Part shown: positions 6,309 through 33,476 of the stretch, in pieces | How positions within the stretch are numbered: the stretch's first letter is position 1 | How the letters are laid out: each line of letters opens with the position of its first letter | IMG/VR virus record: IMGVR_UViG_3300018432_000017 | Location: 1-52,149 of that record | Reading direction: 5' to 3' (one strand) | DNA length: 52,149 bases | DNA from: a virus | Notes under the pieces: generated by a model | Databases searched by the model: none | What the model was told of the DNA's origin: nothing | What the model saw: the letters and a program-made list of their open reading frames with translations, nothing else | Position numbers and translations under genes: made by a program

Positions 6309-7841
6309 TTATCTCCTGGTCTCTGCCGTGGTCTGGGTGGCTCCTGCTTTGTCCCGGTAGGGACTCCCGAACAGGCCCGAGTAGAAGCGGCCTAGCGCTT
6401 CGGGAGCGTGATTGTCCTTGTCCAAAGGTTCCTCCGGAGCCGACCTCCCGCGCTCTCCGGCCTGCTCCGCCGTCTCCCGATATTTGTAGTCGTTCATCTC
6501 CCGGATCGTGTTGACGCACTTGGGATCTATGGTCAGGGAGGGCTTGCGCTCCGGGTGGTCGACCGGAAGCAGTAGCTTATCGCGCGGGATCCGGAGGCCC
6601 CTGCGTATCCACTCGATCCGGTCGTTGAGCGGGATAGATCCCTTGCCGTAGGCGCGTACCTTGAGGAGGCGGGAGAGGGATCGGCTCCGGTCCGGCTCCG
6701 CAGGGTCCGGGAAGAACATCCGCAGCGAGGAGGGGGCGAGGCCCCGCCCCTCGATCTCCCGCGCGGCTTCGTCGGTGTCCTTGTGCGTTTCGTAGTACTC
6801 ATCAAGGACGTGGACGTGCTTCCTATCAGGACTCACCTGGAGCAGCAGCCAGACGAAGGGGTTGGTGAAGCCGTAGTCAGCCGCCGCATAGGTCGCCCAA
6901 CCGGAGCGGAAGGGGTGCCGCTGCACATGAATCTCTTCATCGAAGTCCTTGAACACCCGCCCGACGTACTCGGTGAAGAGGGCTGCGACCTCCTGGTTGA
7001 ATAGCTCCTGGCTCTGGTCCAGGAACATCGACCAGATCTCCGGGTTGATGCCGGGAGGGTGGCCCTCCCAGTTGGGTAGCGTCCGCAGGAAGGCGAGCAT
7101 GTCGTCCAGCCTGTGCTTCCGTCGCGCCTCGATCGCCCGGTCCAGGAGGTCCGTGTCGACTCCTCCGGGGTAGACGTACGGGTTGACCCAGGCCGGCGCG
7201 CGCCACGAGGCCCAGTCCGGGCGGTGCCCGTCGAGCCCGATCATGTAGAGGTCGTAGAACCAGTTCTTGCCTTCGGGGGTCGACGTGAAGAGTGACCACC
7301 CCTCGAAGTCCGCCAGGGTGGGCCGAAGGTACTTGTGCCACACGGACATCTTGAGCTTGGCGGCTTCGGCGAGGATGACCCCTGAGAGACCTTCACCGAC
7401 CAGCGTCGCAGGGTACTTCGCGGACTTGGCGGTTATGATCAATCGCCTGCCGAACATAGAGAGCGTCATCTGACCGCCCTCCGGGTTGTTGTAGGACCCC
7501 GGTCGGTCTACGTCGAAGCCGAGTTCATGCACCCGGTTCCACAGGACACGGAACTCCTTTTCGCTGTCGGAGTACTCCGGCCCAACAATCCAGAACTCCC
7601 GCCGGATCGAGCGCGCTCGCATCTCGTCTAGCTCGCTCCACGCCCGGAAGACCTCGGGGATGAGCGTGTATCCGCCGATCTGCGACTTGCCCGCGCGTCG
7701 ACCGAGCGACACGACCTTGTTACGGACCGGGGAGAGGATGATGTCTCGCTGGATATCGTGTGGGGTCCAGTCCGACTTCTTCCAGATGGCCCGGTGGACA
7801 ACCGGCGGAGCGACCGGGGTCCGGATGAGCGCGGTGGTCAC
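6309..7841 (-). CDS. terL: Terminase large subunit
   Basis: 510 residues from a GTG start that overlaps the preceding stop (GTGA). The ATPase half has a Walker A of the GRRAGKS type (residues 47-53), an adenine-side WTPHDIQRD segment and a motif III FTSTPEGKNW (about 185-194). The expected Walker B reads GVILAEAAK (154-162), with Ala where Asp is usual. The nuclease half starts at AAADYGFTNP (about 319-328, D322) with FPDPAEPDRS and a C-terminal DKDNHAPEAL Asp cluster of the RNase H-like fold. It packages DNA into the prohead through the portal. Confidence 0.93.
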   Translation of the reverse strand: MTTALIRTPVAPPVVHRAIWKKSDWTPHDIQRDIILSPVRNKVVSLGRRAGKSQIGGYTLIPEVFRAWSELDEMRARSIRREFWIVGPEYSDSEKEFRVLWNRVHELGFDVDRPGSYNNPEGGQMTLSMFGRRLIITAKSAKYPATLVGEGLSGVILAEAAKLKMSVWHKYLRPTLADFEGWSLFTSTPEGKNWFYDLYMIGLDGHRPDWASWRAPAWVNPYVYPGGVDTDLLDRAIEARRKHRLDDMLAFLRTLPNWEGHPPGINPEIWSMFLDQSQELFNQEVAALFTEYVGRVFKDFDEEIHVQRHPFRSGWATYAAADYGFTNPFVWLLLQVSPDRKHVHVLDEYYETHKDTDEAAREIEGRGLAPSSLRMFFPDPAEPDRSRSLSRLLKVRAYGKGSIPLNDRIEWIRRGLRIPRDKLLLPVDHPERKPSLTIDPKCVNTIREMNDYKYRETAEQAGERGRSAPEEPLDKDNHAPEALGRFYSGLFGSPYRDKAGATQTTAETRR

Positions 7842-10800
7842 AACGTAACCGGGGTGATGTCGACGTTTAGAGCTCCAGCGTCGTCCAGCTCGACCAGCAG
7901 CGCTCCGGGGATCGACACGTCGATAGCGAGGGGCGGAGCTACATCAACCGTAGGCGCCTCTCCCGGCGTGAAGAGGTAGCCCACCCCTCCGGGCCACAGC
8001 GTCGTCCAGCTCCGGGTCTCCGTGAACAGCGCGGATTCGGTGGTTGCGTTGATCCGGGTCGACGGGAGCGCGAGCCCGCTTCCCCGCACGTTGTCGGCTA
8101 TCGAGGTCGCGACGACAACCAGCGAGTTGAGCGAGGTTGAGCCGAGAAGCAGCCTCCCGCCCCGCGAGTCTGTCGCTAGGGCCAGAACGGAGTCGACTCG
8201 CCCTCCGCTCAGGACGAGACCTCCGCGCGGCGTAGAGGCCAAACTAGCGGCTGAGCCGATCCGAGCCGAGCCGATCGAGGGAGCCGAGCCGCGCGGAGTC
8301 GAGCCGATCCCGAGCGTCGAGCCGGCGGAAGTCGAGCCCGGTAGCGGCCCAGCCGACCGCACGGAGTCCGCGAGATCGAAGGTGAGCGCAGAGCTGACCG
8401 AGGTAGACCCGAGCAGCGGCCCGACGCTTCGAGCGAGAGAGCCGAGATGGACGGTCCCAACGACTGCGACGCTGGAGACGCTGAGAACCGCTCCCCGGAC
8501 GCTATCCGATCGACCCGGTGCGGAGGTAACCCCCGAGGTCCCGACGATCGGCCCGGACGATCGGACGGAGTCAGAGACCGAGAAGGCGAGCGCGCTATCG
8601 ACCCGTCCCGCCCCGAGGAGAGGGCTTGCGCTTCGGGCCTGACTATCCTGGTTCGGTATGGAGGAGACCGACCCGGCACCAATCGTCGGAACGCTCCCGC
8701 GCTCGGAGTCAGCCCGACTCGATGCGGAGTTGGCGCCTGTGGAGCCGAGCAGCGGACCCGCGCTCCGGGCGAGGGATCCCGTTCCGGGCACGGCCGTGAC
8801 GGAGCCGGCTCCGGGAAACGGTCCCGTCGACCGGATCGAGTCGGCCCGCCCCGGCGAGGAGGTGACCGAGCCGGAGCCGATCGAGGGGCCTACTCCCGTC
8901 GAGCCGTCCGCGCGTCCGGCGCCGGAGTCAACCCTGGTCGTGCCGAGCAATGGTCCGACCGAGTAGGCATCATCATCGACTCCCGTAGCGGTCATCGAGA
9001 AGAAGGGGTTGCCCTCCTCGGGGGTCGTGTTGAGGATGCCAATCTGGTCAGCAGTTCCGGTGGAGGAAAGGTCGGTAACCGGTGTCGCTACATCGTCCTG
9101 ACCGAGTTCTATGAGGACGGTGGGATCAAGCGCTCCCCATGCAGAGAAAGCGGTTGACAGGGTTTCAAAGTCCCCATCCGACAGGACGGAATCCTCAACA
9201 AGACCGAGCTGGATTCGACCGTTGAGTTGCTCTCCTGTGCCGGTGCCCCAGCGACCGAGCCGGAGCTTTCCCGAGGAGGTAGGCGACCGGACATCGTTGA
9301 CTAGCTGGGTACCGTTCTGGTGCTCCCAGGTCGGCGTCCCATCCCACAGGAGTCGGTGCCAGCGCGGGATAGCGTTCCCGTTTGCCTTCGAGACGCCGAT
9401 GATCATCCACGTATTGGTGACGGGCGTGAAGGGGCAGACATCCGGGGTGCTTGTGGTCCCGAAGTCGATTGTGCTGCCGTACACCTCCAACCAGTAGCAG
9501 TTGTCGTTGGTCGCGTTGAGGGCGTGAATGATAGCGCCGTTGGCGAGGTCGTAGAAGTAGACCATGAAGGCCAGCGAGATCGGTCCGCCGTCAACGGCCG
9601 ACGCTCCGCCTGGGTTCAGGTCTATGTAGGAGTCGTTGTTGAAGCCTCTGGCAATCGGCCCAACGATATTCAGGTCGGAGTCGACCGGAGCAGAGGCGAC
9701 CGCAGGCCCCAGACCTCGGGCATTAGACCCCGTATTGGCCACTTCCGCAGCCCTGCCGGTACCGGGGCGGGGCACCACGGTCGATCGGGCGTCCGCCGTA
9801 GTCGACGCGGCAGAGGTAGCGCGAGCCGGCGAGACGATAGGGCCTATGGAGCGGAGGTCCGCCCCCGAGTTCACGACCGAGGTCACCGAGCCGGCGCCCG
9901 GTAGCGGACCGACCGGGGCCACGGAGGCTGTCCGAGAGGCGGAGGACGTTGCCGAAGTCGTTCCTAGAAGCGGAGCGCCCGATCGAACGTCCGCACCACT
10001 AGACACGACGCTAGACACCCCGGAAGTACCAGGGAGCGGTCCCGCGCTCCGGAAGGAGTCGGCTCGCGCCGCAGCAGAGGTGGCCGAGATACCGCGCCAG
10101 GCGCTGATCGCTGCCCGGACGTCAGAGGCGGAGTTGACAACGGAGGTGACCGGTATGGAGTTGATTTCCACCCGACCGTCGCGGATATCGTCCGCTACGT
10201 CGGTGCCGCCTGAGGATTCCCGGAGCCGGACAAAGGTGAACTCGCCGCAGGAGGTGGCGGCCTGGGACAAGGTGAGGCTGGGGGCAGTCGTCCCGCCCGA
10301 GCCGGCGGTGACTTCCGCATCCCACGAGGAAACACCCGTGTCGTTGCCGTCAGAGTTGAGACGACGGCTGCGCTGGGTGCGGGCGCCGAACGTGTAGCCG
10401 GTCATGGCGAGCGTTGCGGCGGTGAAGCTAGTCGTTACGTCGGTGTCGGCCGCATACCCGAAGGCGATCCAGTCTCCGGTCTCGACGGAGCTAGGCCACG
10501 TCCCGACGCTCGCCGCTACCGGGCTGGATCCGTGAGTCGTATCGGTGCCGGTAACAACGACCGGAGTATCCCAGCCGCCCGCGCTCTGCGCATAGACGGA
10601 CATGATGGCGGAGGTGGATCCGCCCCCGGTCGTGGCTACCGTGACGTTGCCGGTCTCGGATCCGTCGAGAAGCCGATACCAGACGCCCATACGGGTCGGT
10701 CCGGTGTCGACTCCCGAGGATCCGGTGCCGCCGGTGAAGTCTGCGATGTTCGTCCAGCCGGAGACAGTGGACCAGGTTGCTGTCTCCGGCTTTGTAACCG

Positions 10801-10918
10801 CGAAGATGAGGCCAATACGTCCGGCCGCTACCCCGACATAGGCAACGGTTGTCGAGGAGGTTCCCCGCGCAGCCGTTCCTACATCGACCCCGGTTGATGC
10901 GGAATGCGTGATGGCCAC
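7838..10918 (-). CDS. Large repeat-array protein with central LamG-like domain; putative tail fibre or virion appendage
   Basis: 1026 residues from a GTG start. Residues 1-240 are a strand-rich N-terminal domain like those of phage minor tail proteins. Residues about 284-418 and 648-965 are two arrays of a degenerate repeat of about 22 residues with a core like ADSVRSxGPLPGxxxVxS. Between them, residues about 420-600 look like a concanavalin/LamG-type lectin fold (ISLAFMVYFYDLANGAI, KLRLGRWGTGTGEQLNGRI). Residues 966-1026 form a short C-terminal domain. The stop overlaps the terL start. Carbohydrate binding is inferred from the lectin-like centre; an appendage gene inside the terminase operon is unusual. 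Confidence 0.7.
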   Translation of the reverse strand: MAITHSASTGVDVGTAARGTSSTTVAYVGVAAGRIGLIFAVTKPETATWSTVSGWTNIADFTGGTGSSGVDTGPTRMGVWYRLLDGSETGNVTVATTGGGSTSAIMSVYAQSAGGWDTPVVVTGTDTTHGSSPVAASVGTWPSSVETGDWIAFGYAADTDVTTSFTAATLAMTGYTFGARTQRSRRLNSDGNDTGVSSWDAEVTAGSGGTTAPSLTLSQAATSCGEFTFVRLRESSGGTDVADDIRDGRVEINSIPVTSVVNSASDVRAAISAWRGISATSAAARADSFRSAGPLPGTSGVSSVVSSGADVRSGAPLLGTTSATSSASRTASVAPVGPLPGAGSVTSVVNSGADLRSIGPIVSPARATSAASTTADARSTVVPRPGTGRAAEVANTGSNARGLGPAVASAPVDSDLNIVGPIARGFNNDSYIDLNPGGASAVDGGPISLAFMVYFYDLANGAIIHALNATNDNCYWLEVYGSTIDFGTTSTPDVCPFTPVTNTWMIIGVSKANGNAIPRWHRLLWDGTPTWEHQNGTQLVNDVRSPTSSGKLRLGRWGTGTGEQLNGRIQLGLVEDSVLSDGDFETLSTAFSAWGALDPTVLIELGQDDVATPVTDLSSTGTADQIGILNTTPEEGNPFFSMTATGVDDDAYSVGPLLGTTRVDSGAGRADGSTGVGPSIGSGSVTSSPGRADSIRSTGPFPGAGSVTAVPGTGSLARSAGPLLGSTGANSASSRADSERGSVPTIGAGSVSSIPNQDSQARSASPLLGAGRVDSALAFSVSDSVRSSGPIVGTSGVTSAPGRSDSVRGAVLSVSSVAVVGTVHLGSLARSVGPLLGSTSVSSALTFDLADSVRSAGPLPGSTSAGSTLGIGSTPRGSAPSIGSARIGSAASLASTPRGGLVLSGGRVDSVLALATDSRGGRLLLGSTSLNSLVVVATSIADNVRGSGLALPSTRINATTESALFTETRSWTTLWPGGVGYLFTPGEAPTVDVAPPLAIDVSIPGALLVELDDAGALNVDITPVTL
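8024..8977 (-). repeat. Coding repeat array 2 (about 14 units of about 22 codons)
   Basis: In-frame degenerate repeats within the 1026-residue protein; each unit carries R-S/G-x-GP-x-x-G followed by V-x-S and a short spacer. The DNA is correspondingly low complexity, with many GAGCCGA-type words on the plus strand. Unit boundaries are approximate because units vary from 20 to 24 residues. Confidence 0.75.
9665..10069 (-). repeat. Coding repeat array 1 (about 6 units of about 22 codons)
   Basis: The same protein-level repeat as the longer array, N-terminal to the LamG-like domain. Units such as RSAGPLPGTSGVSS and RSGAPLLGTTSATS are related to units in the second array, so the lectin-like domain appears inserted into, or flanked by, one expanding repeat. 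Confidence 0.7.
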
Positions 10919-13731: not shown

Positions 13732-14787
13732 CTAAGCGGTAAAGGTTGGACCCTGCTTGCGACGCCGAGCAATGATCATGGCGACGAAGCCGGCGCCCAC
13801 TAGCACCATGCCCAGACCGAGGAAGGTGAGGACGCCTCCCGCCCCGGTGACCGGCAGCGGGTCATCGTCGCCCGCACCAGAGCTGGTGTCGGTGTCGTTG
13901 CCGACCGGACGGACGATGATGCCGCCCGGAGTCGGGCTGGTGCTGGTCGAAGCCGAAGCCGTAGCGGTCGGAGACGAAGTTGCCGAAGCCGACACACTCG
14001 CGGTAGGAGTCACCGAAGCCGAAGCGGTAGGCGACACCGTAGCGGTGGCCGTTGGGGTAACGGTCGGAGTGACCGAAGCGCTCGCGGTCGGAGTCGCCGT
14101 GGGCGAACCGGTCGGAGTCGCTGCGGTCGTCCAGTTGTTCAGCTCGCACACCCTTGTCGACTGGAACCGAAGCTCATTGAGCCGGACCTCGACGTTGCGG
14201 TTGTAAGAGCCGAGACCGAAGCCGTAACCGGTCACCTGAGCTTCGGGGTAGAAGGCCCGAATCTCAGCGAGCGTCTTGTTGCCGGCGTAGCTCCCGCCCG
14301 CAGGCTCGTTGTCGGTCCACGGGGAGAGAGTCCGGGTTGCCCAGAACTTGCCCGCGTCCACATCCCACGTCGTTGTTGCGCCGGAAGGGTTTCCGCTCAC
14401 CTGGTAGTACGGCTCGAAGATCAGCACCGTGTCGTTCGTGCCATCGTCGTTGACGTCCAGGTACAGGTGATAGGAGGGGAGCGCGACCTCATTAGCGTTG
14501 CGAGGCAGCCGCTCAGTCTGGTAGGACAGCGTGGTCACGGCCGACAGCGCCACGTCCACATCGCTCGACCAACCGATCTGGTCGACATCCGCATTGCCGG
14601 TCGTCAGCTTCAGACCTCGGGTGACCAGAGTTGCGGTCGCCTCACCTTCGAGGTTGATGCCCGAGAGGTCGCGCCGCACAGTCGTGTCACAGCCTCCCGC
14701 TACCGCCGGATTGGTCGGAGAGAGGACGGCAAGGCCCAGAGCCGATACGGCTCCGATTCCCGCCAGAGCAATGGTACGTCTGAACAT
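13732..14787 (-). CDS. Secreted LPXTG (LPVTG) sortase-anchored surface protein
   Basis: 351 residues. An N-terminal Sec signal peptide (MFRRTIALAG then a hydrophobic core, likely cut after AVAGG or near residue 30) is followed by a globular domain (about 32-220) with CDTTVRRDLSGINLEG and beta-rich segments. Residues about 222-290 are Ser/Thr/Pro/Ala low complexity, the usual wall-spanning stalk. The C-terminus is a complete sorting signal: LPVTG at 311-315, a hydrophobic segment, and an RRRK tail. Such proteins are attached to peptidoglycan by host sortase. The gene is flanked by its own repeats upstream and a hairpin downstream. A role in altering the host surface is inferred. Confidence 0.88.
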   Translation of the reverse strand: MFRRTIALAGIGAVSALGLAVLSPTNPAVAGGCDTTVRRDLSGINLEGEATATLVTRGLKLTTGNADVDQIGWSSDVDVALSAVTTLSYQTERLPRNANEVALPSYHLYLDVNDDGTNDTVLIFEPYYQVSGNPSGATTTWDVDAGKFWATRTLSPWTDNEPAGGSYAGNKTLAEIRAFYPEAQVTGYGFGLGSYNRNVEVRLNELRFQSTRVCELNNWTTAATPTGSPTATPTASASVTPTVTPTATATVSPTASASVTPTASVSASATSSPTATASASTSTSPTPGGIIVRPVGNDTDTSSGAGDDDPLPVTGAGGVLTFLGLGMVLVGAGFVAMIIARRRKQGPTFTA

Positions 14788-23113: not shown

Positions 23114-23435
23114 GTCGCCTCTCCTTGTGAGGGTCCTCAAAGAGCGGATATCCGCCCCAGACCCATTGCCCATCCGGATACCGGCTCGCCGCAATGCGGT
23201 AGCGGTAGCCCCAATGCCGGTTCTCCCACTGCCAATTCATGTGAGCAACCGCTGCCTTGAAGCTACCGGCGAGCGGAGTTGCGGGTAAGTCCTCCTCCGA
23301 GCCGACTTCTCCGCTCATGCCGCCCGCCCTACGAGGCGGAGGCGCCAGGTACCCCGGAAGCACCACCCCCGACACGCTCGGAGCCGTAGTCGCCCCGTCC
23401 CTCGCCTCTCTGGCCGCCCAGTAGTGCTTAGTCAC
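23073..23435 (-). CDS. Protein of unknown function with Trp-rich segment
   Basis: 120 residues; the C-terminal half is unusually Trp/Tyr-rich (MNWQWENRHWGYRYRIA, DGQWVWGGYPLFEDP) and ends in a basic tail. The N-terminal 60 residues are Pro/Gly/Ala-rich. Overlaps the next gene by 41 nt. Function not assignable. Confidence 0.45.
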   Translation of the reverse strand: MTKHYWAAREARDGATTAPSVSGVVLPGYLAPPPRRAGGMSGEVGSEEDLPATPLAGSFKAAVAHMNWQWENRHWGYRYRIAASRYPDGQWVWGGYPLFEDPHKERRHEAQKSRPNQVRR

Positions 23436-23701
23436 GTCGTGCCCCGAGCAGTTGAAGCGTCCCTCCAGACCCGAGGCGCACGCCGGCTCTCCGGATCGAG
23501 CCCAACCGTCAACGGGTCCGACTCCGGGTCAGCCGGGTTGGTCGCATACACCTCGGTCAACTGCAGCCCTTGCTCGCCTTGGTCGAAAATGCGCTCCTTC
23601 CGGTTCGATTCATCAATGAGTCCACCACCGCCGGAGTACTCTCCATGCCCGTCCGGAACCTTTGAATAGCCCATAACAGACAACATCCCTTCAGTGCGCA
23701 C
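23432..23701 (-). CDS. Small protein of unknown function
   Basis: 89 residues from GTG 23701, or 80 from ATG 23674 (MGYSKVPDG) where an AAGGG site lies 13 nt upstream. Gly-rich centre (GHGEYSGGGGLIDESN), polar, no cysteine. ATGA overlap with the downstream gene. Function unknown. Confidence 0.45.
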   Translation of the reverse strand: MRTEGMLSVMGYSKVPDGHGEYSGGGGLIDESNRKERIFDQGEQGLQLTEVYATNPADPESDPLTVGLDPESRRAPRVWRDASTARGTT

Positions 23702-23724: not shown

Positions 23725-23973
23725 TTACTTGCTATCGCCCTTCGAGCTTATCGCCTCCGCGATGGCATTCATCGCCTCCGCTACGGACTCCAGAGAGCCG
23801 GCAATGGAAGCCGATCCCTCTCGGACAGCTGTCGCCAAATCATCGTCTCCAGCAGCGAGCTTCATCGCCAGATACTCAAGACCTCCCGGTGCATCGGCAC
23901 CGCCGTGCGCAATCGATCGGATTGCTCGAATCAGATTGTCAAACTCATCAGAAGTAAACGCCTTAGTCATCAT
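23725..23973 (-). CDS. Small helical protein of unknown function
   Basis: 82 residues, Ala/Ser-rich helices (DEFDNLIRAIRSIAHGG, SLESVAEAMNAIAEAISSK). A clean AAAGGGAT site precedes ATG 23973. It is the first gene after the iteron-bearing gap, so it heads a new transcription unit. No family recognised. Confidence 0.6.
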   Translation of the reverse strand: MMTKAFTSDEFDNLIRAIRSIAHGGADAPGGLEYLAMKLAAGDDDLATAVREGSASIAGSLESVAEAMNAIAEAISSKGDSK

Positions 23974-24277
23974 AGATCCCTTTCTATCAGGAAGATCGCC
24001 TTACCTTATGTGTTCGGCCGGTGTCACGGGTGCGCGCGCTCGCCCGCGCGAGGAGCGTATAGCAAAAGCGCGCTACCAGGTAAAACATCCAGCATAGAGC
24101 CGAAAAATAATAGAAGTAATAAATATTAAGGTAATAGGGTAAGGATTCTTAATGATACTACTCTCTACCACTTCAAACACTCCTTACCCTATCGAGATCT
24201 GGAGGGTTACTTTGGGTAAGTAAGGTAAGGCGCCTCGAATCGCCTTACCTTACGAAGGTAATGTGCAAATCAGGACA
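23974..24277. other. AT-rich iteron region, candidate replication origin
   Basis: 304 bp without a gene. It carries three 12-bp copies of CGCCTTACCTTA (23997-24008 and 24241-24252 direct; 24221-24232 inverted), at least five AAGGTAA heptamers counting both strands, and related GGGTAAG words. Two perfect inverted repeats: 13 bp at 24220-24232/24241-24253 with an 8-nt loop, and 12 bp at 24134-24145/24181-24192. Between them, 24097-24180 is far more AT-rich than the genome around it, like an unwinding element. A GC-rich palindrome-like stretch lies near 24031-24052. It directly follows the primase-helicase gene. It may also carry the promoter of the gene at 23973. Confidence 0.65.
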
Positions 24278-26812
24278 TTACGGGACGAAAGTTTTGGCCT
24301 CCGAGGACAGTCCTATGCCCCTCCTCCCCTTGACCGTTTTGCCGTCGACCCACTTGGCTTTCTCCTCGAAGCCGAGTCCGGAGAGGAAGCGTCCGAGCTT
24401 CCGTGAGCCGAACCGGTCATCAACCTTCACCCCCTGGAACCGACACCACCCCTCAAAGGCAGCGCGCAGATCCGCCGAAGGAGTCCACTCCCCGGCATCG
24501 ATAACGCACCAGTCGCTAACAAACTGATCGAAGTCGGAGGCCCCCGCCCGGAAGCGAGAGAGCGCGGAGAAGGCGCCGGGAGGCGGTAGAAGCTCCTTGC
24601 CTCCCCTACCCTGCGCGTACGCCTCCCAGCCCGCGAGAGCCCACGCTAGGACCCCGGAAAGCACATCCGGATCCGACCGCATGAACGTTAGGAAGTCCGG
24701 GTCAATCACTCCAATCGGTACGTCCCACGGCACAACCCGGATCCGGCGCCAGAAAGCAGAGTCGGCCTGCTCGATCGTCGGGACCGCATTGGTCACGAGC
24801 CACGGCGTGAACTGCGGGTGGTAATCCGGATAGTCGTCCGCAGCCATACGTCGCACCGTAAGCGTCCCGCCTCCGGTCAGCCGCTTAGCCTGATCGGCGT
24901 GGAGGTGCCAGGAGGAGGACGCTTCCTCCGCGTACACAAACCGCTTCGGGATCACCTTCAGCAAGTCCGGGCGGGCCTGGTCATTCTGATTGTCGCGGAA
25001 GATGGTTAGGTTGGTAGCTCCCGCGTAGTCCCCGAGCGCAGCGCCCAGGATCTCCATGAATGTCGTCTTGCCGGTAGAGGTCGGCCCGAAGCAGACCGCA
25101 AACAACCGGGCAGAGTTTCCGCCCCGGAGTGAGTACCCGATCAGCATCTGTAGCCATAGCCGTACCTCGGGATCCGGCTGTGCCGACTCGATGAACGACT
25201 CCCATTCCGGAGAAGAGGCCCCCGGTACATAGAGGCCACCAGTCGACAGCGTTAGGTACTGCTCGGGGATCGAGGGCTTGACCGCTACCCCCGAAGGCGA
25301 CAGCTCAATCACCGACCGACCGGACCGCAGCAGCTCCGAACGGGAATCAAACCATGTCGGCTCGACGGTTATCCCTGACCCGGCCTGCGCGGAGGATATG
25401 GCCGCATCCGTGTTGCCCTTCTTGAGGGTGGATTTGATGAAGGCTAGAAACTCCTTCTTCTGCTTCTCATCCTCGATGAACTCGGCTTCCCGCTTCATAT
25501 CAGCCGTAACTGCCCAGAAGCGGCGCCGGATCTCCCCGGCAGCGGAGGTGTCCCGGACCCAACCGTATTTGTTGGAGTCCCAGTACATCCACCGACCCTT
25601 TGAGCCGTAGTCTACATACTTGACGACTCCCATATTTGCCCGGAGGAGTCGCATTGCGTTGCCGTAATCATCCCGCGAGAAGTCAAAATGTCCCGAGCCA
25701 CTTGATCCATTACCATCGGTCGCAATCCACGATTCTTGTTCCCCCGCACCCTCCAGTCCCCCGCTATGTTGTCCTTTCGAATCGCCTCCCGCATCATCTC
25801 CGTTGCCTCCGGAGTGAGCGAATAGAGCACAGAGGTCTTCATCTTTCGGCTTCCCTTCCGCTACAACCTTCGCAACCCCGCGAAGGACGATCCTTTGCCA
25901 TTCGCCGGAGGCCTGCCGCTCATCCGAGCGTCGAGCTACCGCGACCATGAACGGCTTCCGTAGCTCCGCAAGAGCTTTCACGACCCCGGTATGCCCTGCC
26001 TGCGCATCTCCGATCAGCGCCCAGGCGCCATCGCGCCCAGAGTCGTGCGAACCTCCGTCATCTCCCGCGAGCCGTACCGCCTGAGACCATTTGGTCAGAG
26101 TCGACCGCATAGCCGAACACATATCCGGTCCGCCACGGGCCTTAAGCCACCGGAGCCCAGCCTTTGGAGTTATGTCCGCAGACTCGTGTCCTACCCACTC
26201 CCGCCCCGAGGTGAGCCCTTCAACCCATGCCGGCGCGAGCGCGGGAAGCTCCGCCACTCCAGGGAACTCCTCGACAGGCCCAGAAGCGTCGTCAGTCCGC
26301 CACCACTTGTACTCCTCTCCGGTGTCCGGGTGGACGGAGGGTGAGACAATTGCATACCGGTGATCCCACCGGATTAGCTCGATCCCTCCGCCGAACCGAG
26401 AGCGAAGGTCTCCGGGCCACGCTAGGCCCTCCGGTACCGTGAATAGGCGGATGCCGGAGCCGTCCGTCCGGGCGGAGCTGTACCAGGTGTCCGGCAGCTT
26501 CCCCCAGGCTTCCTCCGCAGCGCGAAGCGTCTCCCGCCCCGCCTTCGTCCCGTACATGTCGATATCGAGACCAAGGACGTTGCGCGGCATTCGAAGCGCG
26601 ATGTTGCCGCTAGCCGAAGCCCAGACCATATTGCCAGCGTTTGCCCTGCCCTTCGCGCTCAACAGCCGCTTGAGCGTCAACTCATCAACATATGCGCCAT
26701 TTGCTCCCGTGAAACCGTCCGGGGGCGGATCCTTCTCCCGAGACGGCAGAGGGATAGGACTCCAACCCTCCGCGTGGTAAGCGCGGGCAGCGGCGCTGTA
26801 TGGGCCCGTCAC
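24278..26812 (-). CDS. Bifunctional primase-polymerase / SF3 (D5-like) helicase
   Basis: 844 residues. The N-terminal third is an archaeo-eukaryotic prim-pol domain: GWSPIPLP near the start, LGLDIDMYG with the paired catalytic Asp (about 93-99), and SGIRLF with IELIRWDHRYAIVSPS. The C-terminal half is a superfamily 3 D5/P4-type helicase: Walker A GPTSTGKT, Walker B RFVYAEEA, sensor WLVTNAVP and Arg finger WRRIRV. It would make primers and unwind DNA at the fork or at the adjacent iteron region. The stop lies about 25 nt from the first iteron hairpin; the start makes an ATGA with the small ribbon-helix-helix gene. Confidence 0.92.
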   Translation of the reverse strand: MTGPYSAAARAYHAEGWSPIPLPSREKDPPPDGFTGANGAYVDELTLKRLLSAKGRANAGNMVWASASGNIALRMPRNVLGLDIDMYGTKAGRETLRAAEEAWGKLPDTWYSSARTDGSGIRLFTVPEGLAWPGDLRSRFGGGIELIRWDHRYAIVSPSVHPDTGEEYKWWRTDDASGPVEEFPGVAELPALAPAWVEGLTSGREWVGHESADITPKAGLRWLKARGGPDMCSAMRSTLTKWSQAVRLAGDDGGSHDSGRDGAWALIGDAQAGHTGVVKALAELRKPFMVAVARRSDERQASGEWQRIVLRGVAKVVAEGKPKDEDLCALFAHSGGNGDDAGGDSKGQHSGGLEGAGEQESWIATDGNGSSGSGHFDFSRDDYGNAMRLLRANMGVVKYVDYGSKGRWMYWDSNKYGWVRDTSAAGEIRRRFWAVTADMKREAEFIEDEKQKKEFLAFIKSTLKKGNTDAAISSAQAGSGITVEPTWFDSRSELLRSGRSVIELSPSGVAVKPSIPEQYLTLSTGGLYVPGASSPEWESFIESAQPDPEVRLWLQMLIGYSLRGGNSARLFAVCFGPTSTGKTTFMEILGAALGDYAGATNLTIFRDNQNDQARPDLLKVIPKRFVYAEEASSSWHLHADQAKRLTGGGTLTVRRMAADDYPDYHPQFTPWLVTNAVPTIEQADSAFWRRIRVVPWDVPIGVIDPDFLTFMRSDPDVLSGVLAWALAGWEAYAQGRGGKELLPPPGAFSALSRFRAGASDFDQFVSDWCVIDAGEWTPSADLRAAFEGWCRFQGVKVDDRFGSRKLGRFLSGLGFEEKAKWVDGKTVKGRRGIGLSSEAKTFVP

Positions 26813-30332: not shown

Positions 30333-33300
30333 CTACTCCGGGTTGATAACAAACATTTGCTGGACGTACAGGCTCGCACCGAAGCCGCCCTTGCTCTTCC
30401 TGGCCTCGACGTACAGCACGTCCGTCCCGAGCCGCAGCCTCTCGATAGCGGCCTTGAACTTCGGGTAGTTGAACCGGGTGACCCGCACGTACACATCTTC
30501 ATCCCCGTCGTCCTTGCAGTGGATGACGCAGGAGGTGGGGAGGTCCGGCCGGTCAATCGACGCGCGGATCTCCTCGACGCTCTTGCCGGACCGAGCCCGC
30601 TCATCCTCGAAGATGTCCTTGTACTCCTTCCGCCCCGGCACGCCCATCCAGCGGAGCGAGGTTCCGCCCTCGGCTTCAAGGATCCCGTCAGAGTTCATAT
30701 CCGGCATAGGCAACGGGATCTCGCCGCTACGGATCGACTTCCGGACCTCCGCGAGCGCGTTGGCAATCTTGTCGACCCCAAACGGGTCCTCCGCCTCCGC
30801 GAAGGTCCGAAAGCTCTGGATCGTCTTGGAGCCGATGCCCCGGACCTCCAACAGATCCTCGAAGCCCTTAATCGGCTTCTCCCGTGCGTGCGCCACGATC
30901 CTGTCCGCAGTTACCGCTCCGACCCCCGGCACCTGTAGCCAACCGGCTAGCACACTTCCCTCGGGTGTTACCGACCAGTCCGCCTCCGACCGCGCTGGAT
31001 CGAGCGGGATGACCGAGATCCCGTGCCGACCCGCGTCCTTCAGCAGAGCGTGCAGTGTCGCCTCCGAGTTGGCCCCTCCGCTCGCGTTCCGGAGCGCAGC
31101 GGCGTAGAACGGGGCGGGGTGATAGACCTTGAACCACATGCACCAGAAGGCGATCATTGAGTACGACACGCAGTGCGCAACGTTGAAGGCATAGGTAGCG
31201 GCGGTCACGAGCCGGCCCCAGATCTTGTGGGCGGTGTCCCGGTCGATCCCGTGGAGTCGAGCCGCCCCCGCAGCGAAGCTATCCGCGCTCTCGTTGAACT
31301 TAGCCTCACCGAGCTTCTTGGAGATGATCTTCCGGATCTCGTGGACCTCTTCGACCGGGAGCCCTCCGATGATCTCCAGGATCTTAAGGATCTGCTCCTG
31401 GTAGATGATCTCGCCGTTGGTCGCCTTCGTTAGCTCATCAATGATCGGATGGAAATGCTTCTTCTCCGCCCGGCCAAACTTGACGTTGATGTAGTCGCCG
31501 GTGGTGCCCGAGAAGAGGGGTCCGGGGCGGGACATCGCATTCACCGCCGCCAGCTCCATGAAGTCGTTCGGCTTGACGTCCCGGTTCACGAGCCGCGTTG
31601 CGCGACCCTCCCACTGGAAGACGCCGATGACGTCGTTGCGGCGGAAGGCTTCCATCACCTTCTCGTCGTCCATCTTGATCCGGTAGAGGTCTTCCAGGGT
31701 AAGGCCGGCGAGGTCCAGTGCCGCCCCGAGCATCTCCATAGTCGAGAGCCCGAGGAAGTCCACCTTCAGCAACCCAAGGTACTCCGCGTCATACTTGTCA
31801 ACGGCGACAACGGTTACCGGGTGCCCGCGCACCTCCTTCGCATACGAGGCAGTGATCTCATCCAGGTGCGCATTCGTCACCACGAGGCCGGCGGCGTGGA
31901 CATTGAGGCCCCGGTAGTCACCTTCGAGGTCCGCAGCCTTCCAGAGGGCGGGATACCGCTCGAACACGTCCTTCACTACGGGGAACATCTCGACGGTATC
32001 GGCTAGCGTGAAGTCAGCGCGGGAGTCTCCGCCCGAGCGCTCGATGAGCATGCCCTTGACGGTCTCCGCCTCAAACTTTGGGACCTCGTGGACCCGCGCT
32101 ACGTCATCAATCGAGTTCCGCCCCCGGTACCGGACGTAGTTGGCGAGGTTGCCGACCGAGCCGGCGCCGTACCGCCCTTCGAGGAAGGTCCGAATCTCAT
32201 GCCGGCGGTTGGACGCGAAGTCGAGATCGATATCAGGGATATCCGTACGGGTCGGATCGATGAACCGCTCGAAGTACATGAGCGGGTATTCCATAGGATC
32301 GATCTCGGTGATGCGCAACAGATAGCACACGAGCGAGGCCGCAGCCGAACCTCGGGCGGGACCCACCAGCACGCCCGCCTCCTTCGCGAAGCGGGTTGCG
32401 TCCGCCGTCATGACGAAGTAGTCGATGAAGTCCTTTGCCTTGATATCACCCATCTCCCGGTCGATCCGGTCCTTGTACTCCGCTGCGTGCTTGACCATTC
32501 GCTGGTTGCCCTGCCGGACCCGGTAGCTCCACCCCTCCCGCATCCACGCCCAGATCAGCTCCTCCGAGGTCGCCCCAGGCATTACCTGCTCGACTGGGAA
32601 CCGCAGCAGCTCCGCCTTCGGGAGGATCACGTTACACCGGTCGGCAATCTCTACCGTCGAGCGAGCCGCCTCCCGCGCTCCGGCTAGGGAAAGTCCGGTG
32701 GCGCGTAGTCGATCGATAACCAGGCGGTCAGAGGTCGGGTGAGTGAGCCGGATGTCATACTCCCACCCCTCCATCTGTCGGGCGACGGTATTATTGCCCC
32801 GGTGCGCCGCATGTAGGATGACCTGAATTTCGTTGTCATTGGGTTGAGGATAATGAACATCTGCCGTCGCGGCAAGCGGAATCCCCAGGCGCGCTCCCAT
32901 ATCTTCAAAGGCCGGGTTGAGCGTCCGGGTGCGCTCCAACTCGGGGAACATCTGCGTTTCGAGATAGAAGCGGTCACCGAAGATGCTCTTGAACTGCGAG
33001 GCCACGCGCTCGGCGCGACGGAGAGAGGCTTCCTCCTCTGGGATCGTCTTACCGCCCAGCAGCGAGCATGACAGCATTGAGTCGGCACACCCAGAGAGAA
33101 CCACCAACCCTTCGCTGTGATCCCGAAGCATTGCCCCGTCAACCGTTGGCCAGTAATAGAACTTCTCCGCCCAGCTACGGCTGACAATCCGGTTGAGGTT
33201 CGCATACCCCTCCTGGTTCTCCGCGAGGATGGTGAGGTGGAACTTCCTCTGGGTTTTCGGCTCCGGCTGAAAGTAGGCTTCAAGCCCGAAGAGAGGTTTG

Positions 33301-33476
33301 ATGCCGACCTTCCGGCAAGCCTTCTCGTGTTGAGGGTGCGACGAGACATTCCCGTGCTCCGTAACCGCTTGCGCCGTCATGCCAAGCTCGGCACTCCTCA
33401 GCGCGTGCTTGTAAGGAGTGCCGTGCCCGTCTCCGAATGAAAACGTGGTGTGGTGATGTATCGATACGTACTTGAT
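30333..33476 (-). CDS. dnaE: DNA polymerase III alpha subunit (DnaE-type replicative polymerase)
   Basis: 1047 residues if the start is the ATC at 33476; 1015 from the first ATG at 33380. The PHP domain motif IHHHTTFSFGDG lies upstream of that ATG and in frame, so the protein almost certainly starts earlier. Catalytic motifs: GPARGSAAASLVCYLL (about 370-387) and PDIDLDF (about 414-420), then KVDFLGLSTMEML, the third acidic strand. Near the C-terminus a helix-hairpin-helix (VPGVGAVTADRIVAH, VRGIGSKTIQSF) and an OB-fold-like tail follow. It should copy the phage genome. Start codon discussed as a finding. Confidence 0.93.
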   Translation of the reverse strand: MKYVSIHHHTTFSFGDGHGTPYKHALRSAELGMTAQAVTEHGNVSSHPQHEKACRKVGIKPLFGLEAYFQPEPKTQRKFHLTILAENQEGYANLNRIVSRSWAEKFYYWPTVDGAMLRDHSEGLVVLSGCADSMLSCSLLGGKTIPEEEASLRRAERVASQFKSIFGDRFYLETQMFPELERTRTLNPAFEDMGARLGIPLAATADVHYPQPNDNEIQVILHAAHRGNNTVARQMEGWEYDIRLTHPTSDRLVIDRLRATGLSLAGAREAARSTVEIADRCNVILPKAELLRFPVEQVMPGATSEELIWAWMREGWSYRVRQGNQRMVKHAAEYKDRIDREMGDIKAKDFIDYFVMTADATRFAKEAGVLVGPARGSAAASLVCYLLRITEIDPMEYPLMYFERFIDPTRTDIPDIDLDFASNRRHEIRTFLEGRYGAGSVGNLANYVRYRGRNSIDDVARVHEVPKFEAETVKGMLIERSGGDSRADFTLADTVEMFPVVKDVFERYPALWKAADLEGDYRGLNVHAAGLVVTNAHLDEITASYAKEVRGHPVTVVAVDKYDAEYLGLLKVDFLGLSTMEMLGAALDLAGLTLEDLYRIKMDDEKVMEAFRRNDVIGVFQWEGRATRLVNRDVKPNDFMELAAVNAMSRPGPLFSGTTGDYINVKFGRAEKKHFHPIIDELTKATNGEIIYQEQILKILEIIGGLPVEEVHEIRKIISKKLGEAKFNESADSFAAGAARLHGIDRDTAHKIWGRLVTAATYAFNVAHCVSYSMIAFWCMWFKVYHPAPFYAAALRNASGGANSEATLHALLKDAGRHGISVIPLDPARSEADWSVTPEGSVLAGWLQVPGVGAVTADRIVAHAREKPIKGFEDLLEVRGIGSKTIQSFRTFAEAEDPFGVDKIANALAEVRKSIRSGEIPLPMPDMNSDGILEAEGGTSLRWMGVPGRKEYKDIFEDERARSGKSVEEIRASIDRPDLPTSCVIHCKDDGDEDVYVRVTRFNYPKFKAAIERLRLGTDVLYVEARKSKGGFGASLYVQQMFVINPE

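Follow-up and report, generated by a model that had tools for sequence, protein, structure and literature searches.

The window analysed here, 52,149 bases long, is an entire IMG/VR virus record, and the whole scored gene tiling of this record is carried by the minus strand. According to a PHROGs scan the left part encodes a major head protein, a head morphogenesis protein, a portal and the terminase large subunit, while PHROGs and Pfam matches place a DnaE-like polymerase, ThyX, a uracil-DNA-glycosylase-like protein, a Sak4-like protein, an exonuclease and a helicase in the right part. The non-coding gap under study begins at the base following the stop codon of a prim-pol/helicase gene and extends over 304 bp to the start of an 82-aa ORF (Table 1). 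Because all genes are on the minus strand, the GC skew tracks transcription and cannot decide the position of an origin; the minimum of the cumulative skew, which had been suggested as a check, falls at the right end of the window, formally against an origin at the gap but uninformative for the reason given.

Table 1 Features at the prim-pol locus and elsewhere in the window.
Feature	Position	Strand	Basis or remark
Terminase large subunit	6309-7841		~16 kb from gap
82-aa ORF, downstream of gap	23725..23973	-	family scans, model
Non-coding gap, candidate replication origin	23974..24277	-	prim-pol stop to next ORF start
Iteron 1, CGCCTTACCTTA, far-side copy	23997..24008	+	exact match
GC-rich palindrome, 82-aa-gene side	24027..24046		repeat search
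Weak box copy (GTTTTACCTGGTAGCGCGC)	24068..24086	-	matrix score 8.1, rank 11 in window
AT-rich core, presumed unwinding element	24103..24162		22% GC, lowest-GC 60 bp of record
TAAGGTAA half-site within AT core	24127..24134	+	motif search and repeat search
Second inverted repeat	arms 24134-24150, 24176-24192		17 nt, 88%; contains GGTAAGG/CCTTACC variants
Possible second degenerate box copy (CTACCACTTCAAACA)	24165..24179	+	80% match to 24073-24087; missed by matrix
Inverted repeat of iterons 2 and 3	24220-24232/24241-24253		13 bp perfect, 8-nt loop
Iteron 2, CGCCTTACCTTA	24221..24232	-	exact match
Iteron 3, CGCCTTACCTTA	24241..24252	+	exact match
AAGGTAA half-site closest to prim-pol stop	24255..24261	+	exact match
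Prim-pol/helicase, proposed initiator, 844 aa	24278..26812	-	Pfam Prim-Pol, D5_N, DUF5906 above cut-off
C-terminal winged-helix-like domain, proposed iteron reader	24308..24508	-	residues 769-835, AlphaFold2
DnaE-like DNA polymerase III alpha, presumed elongating polymerase	30333..33380	-	family matches

The original prediction placed three 12-mers, five AAGGTAA heptamers, two long inverted repeats and an AT-rich core within these 304 bp of a GC-rich genome, and it is clear from exact-match counts and repeat searches that all of them are there. Beyond the three gap copies no exact copy of CGCCTTACCTTA occurs in the 52-kb record, in line with the original prediction, and allowing up to two mismatches gave 9 matches against a shuffle mean of 2.07. 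All five AAGGTAA copies of the window lie inside the gap (shuffle mean 1.15), and the shorter GGTAA/TTACC core is found nine times there, compared with a maximum of three among 2563 other 304-bp windows. The inverted repeats were recovered at 24220-24253 and 24134-24192; the former forms in the DNA fold (z -3.6), and the gap as a whole folds better than shuffled sequences both as RNA (z -4.4) and as DNA (z -3.6). Its GC content is 0.467 vs 0.62 for the record, whose lowest-GC 100-bp window starts inside the gap at 24078 (0.31). The AT core has the repeat cluster on one side, and on the other side one 12-mer and a half-site. By eye, GC-rich palindromes resembling the one on the 82-aa-gene side were also seen in four loci of the survey described below (L018-L020 and L024).

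Blind repeat scoring fails to single out the gap, and it is the specific GGTAA motif that does so. On a repeated-7-mer score the gap is matched by 17 of 510 other 400-bp segments of the window, and on an 8-mer score over 304 bp by 24 of 1025 others, the top ones being located in ORFs around 8.05 and 13.75-14.05 kb. The 351-aa ORF at 13732-14787 (minus strand), which has a PHROG of unknown function as its sole PHROG match, contains internal coding repeats with 8-mers such as CTCCGACC and CGAAGCCG occurring up to five times per 304 bp. The 1026-aa ORF at 7838-10918 (minus strand), which adjoins the terminase gene and gave no match in the PHROGs scan, has a 70% GC stretch and repeats near 8.05-8.5 kb. 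The inverted iteron pair also occurs, in exact form, in three other viral contigs, in none of them near a detectable prim-pol, and these occurrences were taken as chance; a longer exact string gave no match in other viral contigs. An Rfam scan near the gap returned one sub-threshold chance match, and no tRNA was found.

The prim-pol/helicase begins with a PF09250 Prim-Pol domain (residues 9-184, 68.5 bits vs a cut-off of 22.8) and also scores 139.8 bits with the P4-family model TIGR01613 of NCBIfam (cut-off 108.7). The C-terminal 345 residues were modelled with AlphaFold2 from an alignment of 31 sequences (pLDDT 91), and the model ends in a strand-helix-helix-strand-strand unit, at residues 769-835 of the full-length protein, which we read as a putative winged helix. 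The protein combines Prim-Pol and SF3/D5 helicase domains with a winged helix predicted at the C-terminus. When the model was compared with known structures by VIA-align, ASFV PrimPol gave a Z of 24.9, vaccinia D5 a Z of 23.4, and the SaPI5 primase-helicase (7ola) a Z of 23.2 with an rmsd of 3.2 over 305 aligned positions, covering model residues 1-345. The small neighbour on the other side of the gap had been described as a ribbon-helix-helix protein, a reading that was dropped because the 82-aa ORF has no match in Pfam, PHROGs or NCBIfam and its model is all-helical with low confidence (pLDDT 56); a single-sequence scan of viral contigs gave no relatives of it either. Since no ribbon-helix-helix signature is seen in this neighbour, the protein binding the gap repeats is likely the C-terminal domain of the prim-pol itself. 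The 89-aa ORF at 23432-23701 (minus strand) has relatives with 42% identity in L018 and L019, again on the downstream side of the prim-pol gap, and the neighbourhood is therefore partly kept.

For comparison with related loci, neither a single-sequence scan of viral contigs with the prim-pol nor megablast of 16 kb against phages gave relatives. With tblastn the prim-pol matched 948 phage records from INPHARED, all with less than 60% identity, and in 141 of them one place alone accounted for 80% or more of the query. A scan with 12 aligned prim-pols kept 80 loci of 265, from which 28 partial matches were dropped; the 52 loci used, together with 13 annotated records and the window, gave 66 proteins, or 51 after removal of those at least 95% identical. 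Within 400 bp 3' of the stop codon the repeat coverage was beyond all 200 shuffles in 29 of the 51 non-redundant loci (window included), and 25 of the 51 also beat every other segment of their own locus. By eye, the repeats 3' of the gene differ between Wojtek, Madi, Onyinye, ParvusTarda, Rumi, DrLupo and Konstantine. Many distantly related phages share the layout with different repeat letters.

The repeats were not significant in the other 22 loci. Among these are loci of the Zierdtviridae type, in which hardly any space separates the prim-pol from the next gene, and four loci with much longer reading frames (L052, L055, L074 and L075). The Butterscotch gap showed no repeats at the 8-mer level, and GuyFagieri and P69 have just a short GC-rich gap with a hairpin. 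Two Zierdtviridae loci (L007 5253-5341 and L012 5069-5150) carry a GC-rich hairpin, not repeats, between the prim-pol and convergent lysis genes. An iteron origin, should the Zierdtviridae relatives use one, has to be sited away from the gap 3' of the prim-pol gene.

The relation between repeats and protein could be followed in Gordonia phages. When the Rumi gene with its gap was used as a query, 24 Gordonia records were found, of which seven matched over at least 80%, 13 matched only the first ~1,100 bases, which correspond to the primase half of the gene, and four matched less. The DNA of Rumi and ParvusTarda is 92.6% identical up to mid-gene and 90.6% identical again after a divergent stretch, and the stretch that cannot be aligned comprises the helicase, the C-terminus, the gap and one small gene. 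Ten of the 24 records were compared as Lambovirus phages (45 pairs, with the Wojtek gap cut to 400 bp), and four helicase/C-terminal alleles were found to pair with four repeat types. Fourteen of the 45 pairs combine a primase half of at least 87% identity with helicase and C-terminal parts of no more than 36%, and their Jaccard index of repeated 6-mers is 0.00. The 10 pairs with a C-terminal identity of at least 97% have indices of 0.43-1.00, and the remaining 35 pairs 0-0.25. In these ten phages the repeat type goes with the helicase/C-terminal half and not with the primase half. Such joint switching is what would be predicted of an initiator that reads its own repeats through its C-terminal half, and simple linkage would predict the same, since the helicase half adjoins the gap and one recombination could move both without a functional link. 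Wojtek, Jalebi and NovaSharks (L006 5189-5891, L098 and L099) have a different primase half, 42-45% identical to the others, and a repeat type of their own.

A second conserved element, the box CWGGT(CA/AG), was counted within 550 bp 3' of the gene. The 29 repeat-positive loci have 54 copies, where the remainder of these loci would lead one to expect 8.5, and the other 22 loci have seven, against an expectation of 9.1. Columns outside the box core are conserved as well (A/T at -6 to -4, C/G at -1 and G at +9), and because the matrix sites were picked by their core, independent evidence resides in these flanking columns only. Two or more copies are present in 21 loci, and in 16 of these the outermost copies flank the AT minimum; by eye a CWGGT-type box persists through the four Lambovirus repeat types. 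Since the box is constant while the iterons switch, its reader would be something that does not switch. We tentatively suggest, at somewhat less than even confidence, that a widespread type of prim-pol-phage origin could consist of a swappable “address” cassette of iterons and helicase/C-terminal half plus a near-constant AAACCGCAGGTCAGAG-like box, often in two copies ~150 bp apart around the AT core, which may be read by the non-switching Prim-Pol domain (primer start) or by a host factor. In the window, scored with a matrix built without it, the best gap match was weak, at rank 11 in the record, and the box is not claimed for the window.

Collectively, these data make it highly probable, as far as can be judged from sequence, that the gap is the replication origin of the phage and that the prim-pol/helicase encoded alongside uses it. 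It is best read as a self-recognised iteron origin of the SaPI/PICI/P4 type in a tailed phage, and the originally proposed origin gained support from the same layout, with other repeats, 3' of homologous genes and from repeats that track the helicase/C-terminal half. In such an origin the C-terminal winged-helix domain of the prim-pol/helicase would bind the TAAGGTAAGGCG iterons flanking the AT core, the SF3/D5 helicase ring would assemble at the iterons and melt the 22%-GC core, the N-terminal Prim-Pol domain would prime the opened strands, and the DnaE-type polymerase of the phage would presumably extend the primers.

A co-oriented ORF starts immediately after the gap, whose inverted repeats would suit a dimeric regulator, so that the repeats might instead be operators, bound by a repressor or activator, next to a promoter driving the 82-aa ORF and the genes leftward of it. 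We consider this unlikely, since a search limited to sigma-70-like promoters found none (shuffle mean 0.5), since in relatives the repeats go with the prim-pol upstream of them and differ when its C-terminal half differs, and since in Onyinye, Butterscotch and DrLupo the record ends with the gap, no gene being annotated beyond it. That same terminal position, shared by several relatives, would fit a packaging (cos/pac) or partition (parS) site; the terminase large subunit gene is ~16 kb away, however, the equivalent gap is internal to the record in Lambovirus and Madi, and no ParA or ParB match was obtained among 30 ORFs scanned against PHROGs, which leaves this explanation with hardly any probability.

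That the hairpins are transcription terminators or mRNA-processing structures of the prim-pol transcript would agree with the favourable RNA fold of the 304 bp (z -4.4), yet it seems very improbable. A terminator scan confirmed that, as originally stated, the iteron hairpins are not followed by a U-run, and no intrinsic terminator in the sense of a GC-rich hairpin with a T-run was found at them. The one terminator-like match (24104-24088, minus strand; chance mean 0.4) lies away from the iteron hairpins, and termination would leave unexplained both the AT core and the third iteron, 212 bp off.

The origin reading can be compared with several known systems. In SaPIs the origin follows the helicase gene immediately, and the C-terminal domain of the helicase recognises it (available text of PMC7581432); PICI/SaPI origins have two iteron sets around an AT-rich region 3' of the initiator gene (available text of PMC6092414). 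As in SaPI5, SaPIbov1 and EcCICFT073, the gap is situated immediately 3' of the initiator gene, whose product has an SF3/D5 helicase and, judged by its predicted fold, a C-terminal dsDNA-binding domain; the entire modelled half matches the 7ola fold of SaPI5. The primase half differs in being a Pfam Prim-Pol, and the far-side iteron set (12-mer plus half-site) is thinner than the two full sets of PICIs in the text cited. The record also differs from an island in having its own terminase, portal, major head protein and DnaE polymerase, and because of these structural genes the gap is classed as working like a PICI origin and not as a PICI.

In P4, a winged-helix domain binds the origin repeats and the alpha protein has a Toprim primase (available text of PMC4234260, citing earlier work). 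The helicase region here is P4-like by TIGR01613, whereas the primase is an archaeo-eukaryotic Prim-Pol in place of Toprim. PMC4234260 also describes orf904 of pRN1 as Prim-Pol, SF3 helicase and winged helix, with an essential origin 3' of the gene that is a ~100-nt stem-loop without iterons; our protein likewise joins Prim-Pol and SF3 helicase, with the inferred origin 3' of its gene, but iterons and shorter hairpins take the place of the single stem-loop. The C-terminal domain of SCCmec Cch2 binds direct repeats beside its own gene, a putative origin (available text of PMC7581432), in a system that differs by a separate primase-polymerase, CCPol-MP, and by having no phage context. Extrachromosomal mycobacterial prophages have RepA/RNA origins, some tightly linked to the initiator gene (available text of PMC7157519, whose main text does not contain the word “primase”); these are actinobacteriophage origins too, but serve prophage plasmid maintenance.

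The gap thus belongs to a known kind of origin. Three aspects are new as far as a partial literature search tells: a tailed phage whose initiator is a Prim-Pol carries it, cassettes are swapped, and the box stays constant. A prim-pol-linked origin in actinobacteriophages was not described in the literature covered by that search. The S. thermophilus Sfi21 origin was left out of the system comparison. If the reading is right, one could find the origin in many such phage genomes by looking immediately past the 3' end of the prim-pol gene, tailed phages would share a layout that has been reported as a peculiarity of phage satellites, and a plasmid assay would be a direct test of the origin. The Lambovirus cassette swaps provide natural chimaeras for asking which protein half reads the repeats. 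In one surveyed locus (L087 6365-6764) the repeats are very dense, with CTGTTCA present 12 times in 400 bp as TGTGAACAG, which we take to look like the P4 type I repeat.
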